Both the position numbers and the translations under genes were made by a program. A stretch of 63,767 nt of DNA from an uncultured Eubacteriales bacterium. GTDB lineage: Bacteria; Bacillota; Clostridia; Christensenellales; Aristaeellaceae. The notes below the pieces were generated by a model. The model worked only from the letters and a program-made list of their open reading frames with translations, did not search any database and was not told the origin of the DNA. Location of the stretch: contig CADCHI010000018.1 of the NCBI GenBank assembly GCA_902801165.1, positions 1-63,767 on the forward strand, given 5' to 3'. Shown one piece after another: positions 11,244 to 15,880 of the stretch. How positions within the stretch are numbered: position 1 is the stretch's first letter; the number at the start of each line of letters is the position of its first letter.

Positions 11244-12107
11244 GTGCGCCAGATTTTGGAACAACTGAAGGACAAGCTGAACGAGGAACAGTACATCGCC
11301 GACGACGCCCTGGTGACGACGCTCTACATCGCCGTGAAGCTGAACCGGCCGCTGCTGATCGAAGGCGCGGCGGGCGTGGGCAAGACCGAGGTCGCCAAGG
11401 CGGCGGCGAAGGCCTTCGGCCGGGAGCTGGTGCGCCTGCAGTGCTACGAGGGGCTGGACGAGTCCAAGGCGCTGTACGAGTGGAACTATCAGAAGCAGCT
11501 GCTGGCCATACAGATGGGCAATCAGGGCGGCGGGCAGGTCATGAAGGACCTCTTCGGAGAGGAATACCTGCTGGAGCGCCCGCTGTTGAAGTCGATCCGC
11601 AGCGACGAGCCCGTGGTGCTGCTGGTGGACGAGATCGACAAGGCGGATGCCGAGTTTGAAGCCTTCCTGCTGGAGCTGCTCAGCGAGATGCAGGTCACCA
11701 TTCCTGAGTACGGCACCGTCCGGGCCCGCAGCATGCCCTTCATCGTGCTGACCAGCAACCACACCCGCCCCCTCTCCGAGGCGCTGCGCCGGCGGTGTGC
11801 CTATATGTATCTGGAGTACCCGGACATCCCCAAGGAGATTGCCATACTGACGGCGAAGCTCCCTGGGCTGGACGAGGCGCTGGCGGCCCAGGTGGCCCGG
11901 GCTGTGGCCTATCTGCGCCAGAGCGACAACGTGACCAAGAAGCCCTCCGTGGCCGAGTCCCTGGACTGGGCCAGCGCGCTGATGGCCCTGGGCGTGGACG
12001 AGCTGGACGACGAGAGCGCCGCCGCGACCCTGGGCTTTGCCCTGAAGAACAACGACGACATTGCGCAGGTGCTGGCCGATGATGAGTTCATCCGAAGCTT
12101 TATTTGA
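11244..12107 (+). CDS. MoxR-family AAA+ ATPase
   Basis: A 287-aa AAA+ ATPase of the MoxR/CbbQ/NorQ class. Walker A is at residues 41-48 (GAAGVGKT), Walker B at 124-131 (VVLLVDEI), and a sensor-1 block (FIVLTSNHTRPLSEALRRR) follows. MoxR proteins work with VWA-domain partners as chaperones for metal-cofactor insertion or complex assembly. The partner here overlaps its 3' end. The start is a GTG at 11244 preceded by GGGAGG; the nearby ATG is out of frame. The substrate is unknown. CoxD/CoxE of aerobic CO dehydrogenase is the closest functional analogy, and NorQ/NorD another. Confidence 0.9.
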   Translation: MRQILEQLKDKLNEEQYIADDALVTTLYIAVKLNRPLLIEGAAGVGKTEVAKAAAKAFGRELVRLQCYEGLDESKALYEWNYQKQLLAIQMGNQGGGQVMKDLFGEEYLLERPLLKSIRSDEPVVLLVDEIDKADAEFEAFLLELLSEMQVTIPEYGTVRARSMPFIVLTSNHTRPLSEALRRRCAYMYLEYPDIPKEIAILTAKLPGLDEALAAQVARAVAYLRQSDNVTKKPSVAESLDWASALMALGVDELDDESAAATLGFALKNNDDIAQVLADDEFIRSFI

Positions 12108-13713
12108 CGAAAACGCCGTTCCGGAAGCGGAAATTGGCATGGAACAGACCAAAATCTGTGCAAACGGCGAGCGCATGAACCACTGTGAAAGCTGCGATCA
12201 CGGAGGGGATGCCTGCGACGCGGGTTCGAAGGCCTGCGACCATCACCACGGCGGCTGCGGCCACCCGGACGGTGAAAGCTGCGGCGACCACGGCGGCTGC
12301 AACCATCCTGACGGGGGCGGCTGTGGTCATCATCACGATGGGTGCGGCGATCACCACGGCCATTGCGGCCACCATCACGGGGGCTGCGACCATCAGGAAG
12401 GGAACCACCATGGCTGCGGCCATCACGGCCATGGACACGTCCAATTGAAACCGACACCGGTCGGAAAACTGTCCGGCTTTGTCTATTTCCTCCGGAACCA
12501 GGGCCTCGCGGTGGGCATCCATGAGACGGAGGACGCCTTGAAGGCCCTGGGACTGGTCGGCTTTGAGGACAGGGAGACCGTCCGCGACGCGCTGCGGGCG
12601 ATCTTCGCCGGAAGCCGCCGGGAGCAGGAGGTGTTCGACCGCTGCTTCAACCTGTACTTCGTCTCCCGGGAACAGTTCGAGCAGAACCAGGCCGCGCTGG
12701 CCGAGGCCGAGCGGGAGCTGGAGGAGCGGCGCAGGGAGCTGGAGGAGCGGCTGAGCGTCAACGGCAGGCCCATCGACATGCGGGAGGACCTGAAGGACGT
12801 GTATGCCCGCATGCCCCAGAGCGAGCGCGACCACCTGAAGGACGTGGTGGACAGGTTCTCCGAGAAGATGCAGCACGCGCCAAAGCTGTACGAGGGCTTC
12901 ATCCGCTCGGTGTTCATGAAGAGCCTGCTGGAGCAGCAGATGATCCTGGAGGACGCGGCGGAAGGCGCGCAGCAGGCGGACAGCGACGCGGACCTGTTGT
13001 TCCGGGACATCTCCAGCTTCAAGGAGGCGGACATTCCCAAGGCCCACCAGCTGATCGACCAGGTCACCCGGCGGATCAACGGCGAGATCAGTGCCCGGCG
13101 CAAGAGCGCGGGCCGCTCCGCCGCGCTGGACTTCCGCCGTACCCTGCGGGCGGGGCTCTCCACCGGCGGGGCGCTGTGCAGGCTGCGCTACAAGCGCAGG
13201 CACAGCCGCAAGAAGCACGTGGTGATGCTGTGCGACGTGTCAGGGTCGATGCTCCAGTTCTCGGAGTTCGCCATACGGTTTTTGAAGTCGCTGTCCGAGG
13301 TCTCGGATCATTCGGATATCTTCCTGTTCTCGGAGCAGGTGCAGAAGGTGAACCCCTTTGCGCTGCAGAACATGGATATGTTCAGCGGCTACGTGCGCTC
13401 CTCGGGCGTCTGGGGCCGGGGCACGAACATTGGCGCGGCGCTGGACGTGCTCCTGGCGGCGAGCCCGGCGGTGCTGACGCCGGGAACGGTGCTGCTGATC
13501 CTCAGCGACGGCAAGTCGGTGGACGTGGACCGGGCCGAGGCCGGGCTGATCCGGGCGGCCAGGTCCGCGGGCAGCGTGGTGTGGATGAACCCGATCCCGG
13601 AGGCGAAGTGGCAGTACCTGAAGGGGGCCACGCGGCTGAGGCAGCATTGCAGCATGGTGCCCTGTGGCACGCTGGACGAGCTGGCCAGGGCCTGCGCGAG
13701 GCTGATCGGATAA
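12082..13713 (+). CDS. VWA (CoxE-like) protein with N-terminal His/Cys-rich metal-binding stretch
   Basis: About 543 aa from the ATG at 12082, which overlaps moxR by 26 bp; the ATG at 12139 (525 aa) is an equally plausible start. Residues ~34-121 are a low-complexity stretch with about 24 His and 12 Cys, mostly in HHHGGC or GCGHH units, as in nickel-storage tails. A helical region with a Glu/Arg coiled coil (QAALAEAERELEERRRELEE) follows. The C-terminal CoxE-type VWA domain has the MIDAS motif Asp385-x-Ser387-x-Ser389 (DVSGSM) and SDGKSVDVD. It should pair with the MoxR ATPase in metallo-enzyme maturation. Linking it to the Ni enzymes 3.7 kb away is my inference. Confidence 0.85.
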   Translation: MSSSEALFDENAVPEAEIGMEQTKICANGERMNHCESCDHGGDACDAGSKACDHHHGGCGHPDGESCGDHGGCNHPDGGGCGHHHDGCGDHHGHCGHHHGGCDHQEGNHHGCGHHGHGHVQLKPTPVGKLSGFVYFLRNQGLAVGIHETEDALKALGLVGFEDRETVRDALRAIFAGSRREQEVFDRCFNLYFVSREQFEQNQAALAEAERELEERRRELEERLSVNGRPIDMREDLKDVYARMPQSERDHLKDVVDRFSEKMQHAPKLYEGFIRSVFMKSLLEQQMILEDAAEGAQQADSDADLLFRDISSFKEADIPKAHQLIDQVTRRINGEISARRKSAGRSAALDFRRTLRAGLSTGGALCRLRYKRRHSRKKHVVMLCDVSGSMLQFSEFAIRFLKSLSEVSDHSDIFLFSEQVQKVNPFALQNMDMFSGYVRSSGVWGRGTNIGAALDVLLAASPAVLTPGTVLLILSDGKSVDVDRAEAGLIRAARSAGSVVWMNPIPEAKWQYLKGATRLRQHCSMVPCGTLDELARACARLIG

Positions 13714-13741
13714 GAGACGCGGTTAAATCCACGTGAAATGT

Positions 13742-13770
13742 TTGACTTTTGCCCGTGTCGGCGCTACAAT
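13742..13770 (+). promoter_or_regulatory. promoter of the metA leader
   Basis: The -35 is TTGACT (13742-13747), the spacer is 17 bp, and the -10 is TACAAT (13765-13770). Transcription should start near 13777, just before the leader peptide. Confidence 0.8.
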
Positions 13771-13799
13771 ACTAAAAAACGTTGCGATGAGGTAGGATT

Positions 13800-13856
13800 A
13801 TGACGCGAAACCGCCGCAGTATGTGCATGGGCAGGAGGCCGAAGCAGCCTGCTTGA
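13800..13856 (+). CDS. 18-codon leader peptide with Met-Cys-Met, metA attenuator
   Basis: A short frame, MTRNRRSMCMGRRPKQPA, preceded by GAGGTAGG (13789-13796). Codons 8-10 are ATG TGC ATG, so ribosome stalling would report methionine or cysteine charging. The coding DNA 13802-13809 pairs perfectly with 13857-13864 just past the stop, and a terminator follows at 13879-13908. This is the layout of an amino-acid attenuator in front of a methionine-biosynthesis gene. It is too short for routine gene calling and is inferred from context. An alternative is that the same region is an RNA-only riboswitch (6-bp outer helix 13783-13788 with 13869-13874). Confidence 0.55.
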   Translation: MTRNRRSMCMGRRPKQPA

Positions 13857-13878
13857 TTCGCGTCGCCAATCGCGCGAG

Positions 13879-13908
13879 AAGGGGAAGCGGGCTGACCGCT
13901 TCCCTTTT
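13879..13908 (+). terminator. attenuator/terminator upstream of metA
   Basis: A 9-bp perfect stem (13882-13890 with 13896-13904), loop GCTGA, extended by A-T pairs and followed by TTTTGATTT. It lies between the metA promoter and metA, so it must be conditional. The stretch 13909-14044 shows no further gene. Confidence 0.8.
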
Positions 13909-14044
13909 GATTTATCGAAGACAGAGGGTTTTCCGGGTCGGCGGGTCCGGCAGAAACGCGCCGACAATCATTGATTGAACAGGGTGGGGGAAGGGCTCCG
14001 GAGGCGAAAAACCCGGAGGACGCCGCCCGACAGGAGGTAGGACC

Positions 14045-14962
14045 ATGCCGATCAAGATTCCCAACAGCTTGCCCGCCACCGGGGTGCTCGAAAGCGAAAA
14101 CATATTCGTCATCACCGAGTCCCGGGCCATCAGCCAGGACATCCGTCCGCTGCACATCCTGCTGCTGAACCTGATGCCCACAAAGGTGGCCACGGAGACC
14201 CAGCTGGCCCGCGTGCTGGGGAACACGCCCCTGCAGGTGGAGCTGGAGCTGCTGCAAGTGCGCTCCCACGAGTCCAGGAACGTGTCCCAGGAGCACATGC
14301 TGGCCTTCTACAAGACCTTCGACATGGTGCGCGAGAACCGCTACGACGGCATGGTCATCACCGGCGCGCCGGTGGAGCATTTGCCCTTTGAAGAGGTGGA
14401 TTACTGGGACGAGCTGTGCGAGATCATGGAGTGGAGCAAGACCCACGTGCACAGCACCTTCCACATCTGCTGGGGAGCGCAGGCGGGCCTCTACTACCAC
14501 TACGGCATCAAGAAATACGGCCTCGACAAGAAGCTGTTCGGCGTGTTTCCCCACGTGGTGGAGCGCCGCAGCTCCATACTGTTCCGGGGCTTTGACGACG
14601 TGTTCATGGTGCCCCATTCCCGCCACACCACCATTCGCCGGGAGGACGTGGAGGCGGTGCCGCAATTGAAGATCCTGGCCACGTCGAAGCAGGCGGGCAT
14701 CTACGCCATGGCCACCGACCAGGGGCGGCAGGTGTTCATCACCGGGCACTCCGAGTACGACCCGGACACGCTGGAGCGGGAGTACCTGCGGGACAAGAAC
14801 GCCGGCCTGCCCATCGAGGTGCCGAAGAACTACTATCCGAACGACGATGACACCCAGCCTCCGCTGACGAGCTGGCGGGCCCACGCGAACCTGCTGTACT
14901 CCAACTGGCTGAACTACTTCGTATATCAGAACACGCCCTACGACCTGAGCGAGATCAAGTGA
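14045..14962 (+). CDS. metA: homoserine O-acetyltransferase (MetA family)
   Basis: The 305-aa enzyme activates homoserine in methionine biosynthesis. Catalytic Cys142 ([10 protein letters not shown]), His235 and Glu237 (GHSEYD) fall at exactly the canonical MetA positions. Residue 111 is Glu (GAPVE). In this family Glu111 is the published marker of acetyl-CoA use, whereas Gly111 marks succinyl-CoA, so the product is predicted to be O-acetylhomoserine. The ATG at 14045 follows CAGGAGGTAGGACC. The gene is preceded by its own promoter, leader peptide and attenuator, which suggests control by methionine supply. A GNAT gene begins 17 bp downstream and is probably co-transcribed. Confidence 0.96.
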
Positions 14963-15606: not shown

Positions 15607-15880
15607 GGCTTCCGCGCGTCCGTGGTTGAAAGTCGATGCCAGTCGCAGGCGAAACGATCCACGTAAGCCGGGAAAATTCCGGTGAGCATGGTGCGGCTTA
15701 GAAGTAAGTCCTGCCAACATCTATATTTCACGTTGAGAGAAGCAGTAGTGGGGAGGCATGAGGCCTTAGGAGCGAACCTTCCAGCAGGCGAGTGTGGGGT
15801 CAAAGACCAGGTCGGGCGCGGAAGCCGCTTTTGCGCCGTGAAGAGGAGTGCCGCGAGCGATTGCGGGCTCCTCTTTTCTT
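15607..15880 (+). ncRNA. large structured non-coding RNA, possibly raiA-type
   Basis: About 270 nt bounded by a near-consensus promoter and an intrinsic terminator, with no convincing reading frame on either strand. The 5' end (15607-15617) pairs perfectly over 11 bp with 15816-15826, closing a ~220-nt domain. Inside lie purine-rich segments typical of conserved RNA cores (CTTAGAAGTAAGTCC, GGGGAGGCATGAGG, TTAGGAGCGAACC, GGGTCAAAGACCAGGTC). Size, closing helix and host group fit the raiA motif, but I cannot verify the consensus. It is not RNase P, tmRNA, 6S or SRP RNA: the hallmark sequences of those are absent. No raiA or comF gene is adjacent. Confidence 0.75.
15841..15880 (+). terminator. 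terminator of the ncRNA
   Basis: Stem AAGAGGAG/CTCCTCTT plus inner CCGC/GCGG (15841-15875), followed by TTTTCTTGT. Confidence 0.85.

Follow-up and report, generated by a model that had tools for sequence, protein, structure and literature searches.

Organization of the metA locus

The window analysed here, a stretch of 63,767 nt, belongs to the genome of an uncultured Clostridia lineage (designated G000), and all coordinates refer to positions within it. The product of its metA gene is of the homoserine O-acetyltransferase type, with a score of 499.5 bits against the acetyltransferase model NF047918, above the cut-off of 460.5, and of 440.6 bits against the succinyl model TIGR01001, under the cut-off of 495. 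The features found upstream of this gene are listed in Table 1. Promoter, ribosome site, 18-codon frame, 8-bp helix and terminator had been described in the original prediction, a reading made from the letters of this stretch, and all of them were recovered in place; furthermore, the arrangement goes beyond chance, as metA is preceded by it in five further genomes of the same genus.

Table 1. Features of the metA leader region, in window positions.
Feature	Position	Strand	Basis and comment
Conserved element TTAAATCCACGTGAAATGTTTGACTTTT, extending from the 5' side into the -35 box (metA promoter)	13723..13750	+	Comparison with relatives, by eye
Sigma-70-type promoter TTGACT-17-TACAAT	13742..13770	+	Promoter scan; -35 TTGACT at 13742-13747, -10 TACAAT at 13765-13770, spacer 17 nt; resembles the metA promoter of leaderless relatives (by eye)
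Shine-Dalgarno GAGGTAGG of the leader frame	13789..13796	+	Sequence; SD-like stretch in the other five leaders (by eye)
18-codon leader peptide MTRNRRSMCMGRRPKQPA and stop	13800..13856	+	ATG at 13800, TGA ending at 13856; 18-codon ungapped frame in 6/6 leaders
Outer 8-bp helix, 5' arm GACGCGAA	13802..13809	+	Fold; 89% of cells paired over six leaders
Met8-Cys9-Met10 codons	13821..13829	+	Both Met invariant in six leaders, Cys not
Segment 1, GGGCAGG	13829..13835	+	Partner of segment 2; a ribosome standing at the Met codons would cover it
Segment 2, CAGCCUGCUU = CAGCCTGCTT, codons 16-18 and first stop base	13845..13854	+	Pairs with segment 1 or 3
Outer 8-bp helix, 3' arm TTCGCGTC	13857..13864	+	Complementary to GACGCGAA; fold
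Intrinsic terminator hairpin and T tract	13878..13908	+	Folding; 94% of cells paired over six leaders
Segment 3, AAGCGGGCTG = AAGCGGGCUG, 5' arm and loop of the terminator	13885..13894	+	Antiterminator partner of segment 2
metA, homoserine O-acetyltransferase type	14045..14962	+	NCBIfam NF047918; Pfam PF04204

A sigma-70 scan, which covers one promoter type only, returned a single promoter-like site in 13650-14100, against a mean of 0.1 in shuffled sequences. The conserved element that extends into the -35 box is A/T-rich and follows the pattern TTAAA-N5-GTGAAA-N-GTTTGAC; it is recognisable in many members of the genus, leader-bearing or leaderless (judged by eye and uncounted), and at up to 3 mismatches it occupies a single site in its own genome. 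It is possibly an operator or an UP element.

Several further observations concern the surroundings of the gene. A pair of genes for an AAA ATPase and a VWA (CoxE-like) protein (11244-13710, +) lies directly 5' of the metA promoter, and a similar gene end precedes metA in several relatives (by eye). In many relatives from outside the genus (L015, L019, L024 and others), a conserved C-terminal stretch starting MADARTCCLHPAS is found just 5' of metA, which we take to be the end of an upstream sulfhydrylase-type gene. A raiA RNA (RF03072, 199 bits; 15609-15824, +) is located shortly 3' of metA and a GNAT gene, and was also found in 5 of 12 loci scanned, all five within the genus. The terminator and the metA start are separated by 136 nt in the window (13909-14044), including about 100 extra bases with possible hairpins that are present in G000 and G206 only; in G207, G016, G202 and G216 the gap is of approximately 30-45 bases.

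Conservation of the leader frame

The six leaders, which are mutually non-independent sequences, each contain a frame of the same length (Table 2). Their alignment showed 0 gaps in the frame columns, whereas the examined columns of the 3' flank contained 35 gap cells; none occurred in the few columns examined on the 5' side. Met1, Arg3, Met8, Met10, Pro17 and Ala18 are invariant in all six. Mean pairwise identity was 0.37 at codons 4-7, 0.93 at codons 8-10 and 0.92 at codons 16-18 plus the stop, with values of 0.40 for the ribosome-site region and 0.49 for the spacer; the terminator had 0.79, rising to 0.91 on omission of G216. The comparison of relatives that had been put forward as a test speaks for attenuation by ribosome stalling: an 18-codon frame with both Met codons has been retained, and codons 4-7 have drifted. 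Synonymous changes affect the Arg3 codon in three leaders and the Pro17 and Ala18 codons in G216, where CCG GCC stands in place of CCT GCT and Pro-Ala is retained despite the RNA change.

Table 2. The six leaders: peptides, codon 9, Cys codons, and predicted pairing of segments 2 and 3.
Genome	Leader peptide	Codon 9	Cys codons	Ribosome-free folds: lengths with at least 9 segment 2:3 pairs	Shuffled frames with 2:3 energy as good, per 2000
G000 (window)	MTRNRRSMCMGRRPKQPA	Cys	1	1/5	59
G206	MTRNRRSMRMGRMPQQPA	Arg	0	0/5	346
G207	MARGIVNMCMRRRQRQPA	Cys	1	4/5	7
G016	MARFFREMYMCRWQKQPA	Tyr	1	3/5	4
G202	MTRNRFFMCMCRRQQRPA	Cys	2	3/5	26
G216	MTRRIVNMCMAGMLRQPA	Cys	1	3-8 pairs	477 (the segment used ended short of the stretch that pairs in the ribosome folds)

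Ribosome stalling at Met and Cys codons had been the mechanism originally suggested. Its Met part is borne out by the invariance of Met8 and Met10 in the six leaders and by the exclusive pairings described below, but Cys is not conserved at codon 9. A requirement for Cys sensing is rejected, as a Cys codon is absent from the G206 leader and codon 9 is variable; given the numbers of Cys codons per leader, Met is the signal that has been kept and Cys is dispensable. Both Met codons are unpaired in the window fold, except for the last base of Met10, and this fold therefore leaves their conservation unexplained. The gene located 3' of the leader, metA, belongs to the methionine pathway, and codons 8 and 10 match the product of that pathway in all six leaders.

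Predicted alternative pairings of the leader RNA

A pairing absent from the earlier description involves three segments of the leader, of which segment 2 may pair with segment 1 or with segment 3. In the window, the segment 2:3 helix comprises 10 bp with an energy of -18.7 kcal/mol, and the terminator hairpin folds with -21.4 kcal/mol; the antiterminator (segment 2:3) and terminator pairings are mutually exclusive in the predicted structures. The 8-bp helix between the start of the frame and the bases after its stop, noted in the original prediction, is not the switch but a partly conserved outer helix, and the part of antiterminator would fall to segment 2:3. Segment 1 has another sequence in G216, with its pairing retained.

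According to the mechanism that we propose, the transcript would begin at the promoter listed in Table 1 and a ribosome would translate the 18-codon frame. With ample Met-tRNA, the ribosome would come to stand at the stop codon and cover segment 2, upon which the terminator would form and metA would not be transcribed. With scarce Met-tRNA, it would wait at Met8 or Met10, covering segment 1 and leaving segment 2 free for segment 3; the terminator would thereby be blocked and metA transcribed.

Transcripts ending at the segment 3 end or longer (five lengths) were folded with the RNA behind the leading edge of the ribosome removed. With the ribosomal A site at Met8 or Met10, 9-11 segment 2:3 pairs were predicted in 5 of the 6 leaders for transcripts cut at the segment 3 end, and this pairing persisted in longer transcripts, except for G202 with the ribosome at Met10, in which 2 pairs were found at the longest length. 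With the A site at the stop, 0 such pairs were predicted in all six leaders at all five lengths. In the remaining leader, G216, terminator and segment 2 are unlike those of the others and the 10-bp helix is lacking; an alternative pairing, weaker and interrupted, was predicted for it, with 9-11 pairs at 4 of the 5 lengths when more of the loop was included. In full-length folds, the terminator or an alternative structure holding its 3' arm wins with or without a ribosome, and the order of folding therefore matters.

Using a leading edge at +13, segment 2:3 pairing was predicted for a ribosome placed from codon 2 to approximately codon 12 in five of the six leaders, with a dip in G206 (4.7 expected pairs with the ribosome at codon 7). 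This range of relief is broader than the Met codons, and the role assigned to these codons therefore rests on their conservation and not on folding. Folds without a ribosome varied among leaders (Table 2); as some of them retain 2:3 pairs, failed initiation need not cause termination. Compared with shuffled frames, the 2:3 pairing energies are modest (Table 2). Compensatory changes were found in no antiterminator pair among the six leaders, one of the ten pairs lying on a gap-shifted column; since no pair changes on both sides, this helix rests on conservation.

The leader parts, their conservation and the exclusive pairings are established by sequence, comparison and folding, and we infer stalling of the ribosome, coupling of transcription with translation, and a response to methionine. 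Those defining features of an attenuator that sequence and folding can reveal appear to be present, except that the folds of the untranslated leader differ by leader and by length. From these data, the metA leader is probably a ribosome-mediated transcription attenuator whose signal is the amount of elongator tRNA-Met that is charged.

Part of the conservation could be explained in another way, namely by a nascent peptide that, once finished (QPA-stop) or in part, would arrest the ribosome when methionine or SAM is sensed, instead of the ribosome being kept at Met codons by a shortage of charged tRNA. Arg3, Pro17 and Ala18 are indeed invariant as residues despite the synonymous codon changes, and segment 2 would be covered by a ribosome arrested at the stop, with termination as the result. 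However, the helices and the antiterminator also account for the conservation of codons 1-3 and 16-18, a ribosome released normally at the stop would give the same outcome and make arrest unnecessary, and arrest alone leaves the invariant Met8 and Met10 unexplained. Six sequences are too few to part a constraint on the peptide from one on the RNA, and we consider peptide arrest improbable.

RNA structure and searches for known regulatory RNAs

The fold of the leader RNA (13765-13915) had an energy of -59.9 kcal/mol, compared with a shuffle mean of -45.0 (z -4.1), and 0 of 200 shuffles were as good. Over the six leaders, 92.5% of cells are paired in the structure formed by the outer helix, the inner helix (93%) and the terminator. 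The two innermost pairs of the outer helix are broken in 3/6 and 2/6 leaders, respectively, and none of its pairs has changed on both sides among the six. The terminator hairpin is present in the post-stop fold of all six leaders, and the T tracts are interrupted in G207 and G016. The window terminator was not called by a simple terminator scan, in our surmise because the stem enters the T tract. Two pairs of the whole structure, both in the terminator, changed on both sides, a result matched by 14 of 500 shuffles; since versions of the structure slid along the alignment show 0-4 such pairs, covariation lends little support.

S-box or T-box RNAs are the usual regulators of methionine biosynthesis in Firmicutes, and neither had been seen at metA in the original prediction. 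This observation stands: within 13700-14100, no Rfam family was matched even at E values up to 5, including the SAM families and the T-box (RF00230), and over the whole window only the raiA RNA and one tRNA reached the gathering score. Elsewhere in the same genome, one SAM-I riboswitch match precedes metK, and 17 T-box matches were obtained, 4 of them above the gathering score and none at metA; one of the weaker T-boxes (62.7 bits) precedes metG. Both usual systems are therefore present in this genome and yet unmatched at metA. Outside the genus, a T-box (926-1166, 99 bits) lies directly 5' of metA at locus L047, and another one appears to precede metA at locus L023 of genome G087, a member of another genus of the same family (2462-2710, 56 bits, E 1.2e-9, under the gathering score); the control of metA therefore varies among relatives. 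No SAM riboswitch was reported in the 17 distinct non-genus loci scanned.

An orphan riboswitch, in which the frame would be incidental and the RNA itself would recognise a metabolite, for instance SAM or methionine, would account for a leader that folds far better than its shuffles and for the high proportions of paired cells in the outer helix, inner helix and terminator (89%, 93% and 94%); methionine genes are, in addition, usual riboswitch targets. Besides the lack of an Rfam match in 13700-14100, several features argue against it. The conserved unpaired stretches are few, mainly AUG-N-N-C-AUG and the bases around the stop, which is small for a binding pocket; the frame length and both Met codons are kept ungapped in all six leaders, whereas the 3' flank is gapped; and the outer helix has no compensatory pair, its two innermost pairs being broken in three and two leaders. 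A riboswitch is hence disfavoured, and we regard it as distinctly improbable.

Distribution among relatives

The genus is represented in our collection by 28 genomes, 26 of them with metA, and 25 of these are readable, as G204 starts inside metA at a contig end. The leader was found in 6 of the 25 (G000, G206, G207, G016, G202 and G216), with MetA proteins 85-100% identical to that of the window. In the other 19, metA follows a promoter, or a short stretch without such a frame and terminator (by eye; no match to model R2). This model, built on the six leaders, gave 6 strong matches among 308 genomes of the family (90.9-131.6 bits; next 35.2), all of them preceding metA. A second model, R1, with the terminator stem one base off the R2 register, recovered the same six from these genomes (99.0-127.8 bits; next 28.8). 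The R2 match of 35.2 bits (G145) is a hairpin that matches on both strands, and the weak R1 matches that were inspected, judged by eye and by their frames only, resemble coding sequence or hairpins belonging to other genes. For loci ending at contig ends (e.g., L160, L169 and L175), the inspected stretch may omit the R1 match.

Among 396 sampled genomes of the order, G000 and G016 alone gave strong matches (next best 27.0 bits for R1 and 30.6 bits for R2), the other four leader genomes presumably not having been drawn. In the family and order searches alike, filters were stricter and few candidates were scored per genome, and distant forms of the leader may therefore have been missed. As far as the searches extended, the attenuator appears to be confined to some members of one genus. 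In a metA DNA tree of 29 rows, with 8 of 25 inner branches open, the distribution of the leader requires three changes. The first branch within the genus is G216 (support of 81/81 for the rest), and a single gain with two losses would suit the tree; transfer of the leader may be compatible with it as well.

A terminator scan of 131 metA upstream regions, including the repeats of one genome, flagged 24 loci, 9 of them leader copies. Inspection of the other 15 (L010 and L132 included) revealed no convincing Met leader, and two were T-boxes. The scan is insensitive, given that in G207 and G016 it overlooked the terminator of the leader. The leaderless loci contained 12 SD-preceded small frames, 4 of them with at least 2 internal Met, and three of these four are the end of an upstream gene; the count of internal Met in such frames is non-discriminating. 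A T-box regular expression was too unspecific for counting.

A third explanation, that the leader is a short terminated transcript (a small RNA or the gene of a small protein) and that metA has its own promoter 3' of the terminator, is highly improbable: the 136 nt that precede metA in the window would offer room and our scan covers one promoter type, but the only promoter-like site in 13650-14100 lies upstream, the approximately 30-45 bases in G207, G016, G202 and G216 leave little space for another one, leaderless relatives have a metA promoter similar to the one that precedes the leader, and the strong matches to the element all precede metA.

Discussion

Leader-peptide attenuators have been described in enteric bacteria for the trp, his, leu, thr, ilv and phe systems. 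Like these classical attenuators, the proposed metA attenuator has a short translatable frame with codons for the end product, located before the gene, and predicted competing 1:2, 2:3 and terminator pairings. A leader peptide also replaces T-boxes at hisS and hisZ of Firmicutes, according to the description in PMC2965389, and at metA, too, a leader peptide would take the place of a T-box; as such, leader peptides are therefore no novelty among Firmicutes. Compared by description with the classical leaders and with the his leaders of Firmicutes, the metA leader differs in having two split Met codons (AUG-NNN-AUG) and no run, and belongs to a different gene and host group.

Two other leader RNAs of methionine genes respond to tRNA-Met. 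The T-box of the Staphylococcus aureus met leader is described as binding tRNA directly, with a preference for initiator tRNA (PMC3771891). The proposed metA leader would likewise control transcription through the charging of tRNA-Met; unlike that T-box, it has no T-box match, and a ribosome would read its internal Met codons, which are decoded by the elongator. The SAM-I (S-box) riboswitch of Xanthomonas, also a leader RNA that controls methionine genes, is described in PMC7270179 as sensing initiator tRNA too, with a preference for the initiator, and the metA leader is without SAM-I match. A reading of elongator charging would set the metA leader apart from both leaders, as these are portrayed in the two sources.

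With regard to sulfur amino acids, the uORFC-8-2 motif before cysS of Rhodobacterales is presented as a candidate for attenuation at Cys codons (PMC8632094). Both this motif and the metA leader are candidates for ribosome-mediated attenuation with two conserved codons for a sulfur amino acid, the former differing in its tandem Cys codons, its tRNA synthetase gene and its occurrence in Alphaproteobacteria. The Cys leader peptides of Actinobacteria are likewise frames for genes of sulfur amino acids, but in the account given in PMC1262725 they have runs of Cys near the stop and no evident terminator; no conserved RNA structure upstream of actinobacterial methionine operons is recorded in that account. 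No Met leader-peptide attenuator was found among the literature matches listed, in a search that left most subscription papers outside.

The more specific proposal, of an attenuator that gauges elongator tRNA-Met charging, occurs in part of one genus, and implies closeness of ribosome and RNA polymerase on the leader of a Firmicute, is in our opinion plausible rather than probable. If true, methionine would join, through such a leader peptide, the amino acids that are read by ribosome stalling. A Met leader would also pose a puzzle: Met starts every frame, and starvation for Met would therefore also affect, and lack of Met block, initiation of the leader's own translation. The RNA polymerase of Bacillus subtilis runs ahead of the ribosome (Johnson et al. 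2020, as summarised in PMC7858274), and a working attenuator in a Clostridia lineage would therefore make coupling there testable on a small and defined RNA. Natural comparisons are also available within the genus, in which 19 of 25 readable genomes are leaderless and have the same metA.
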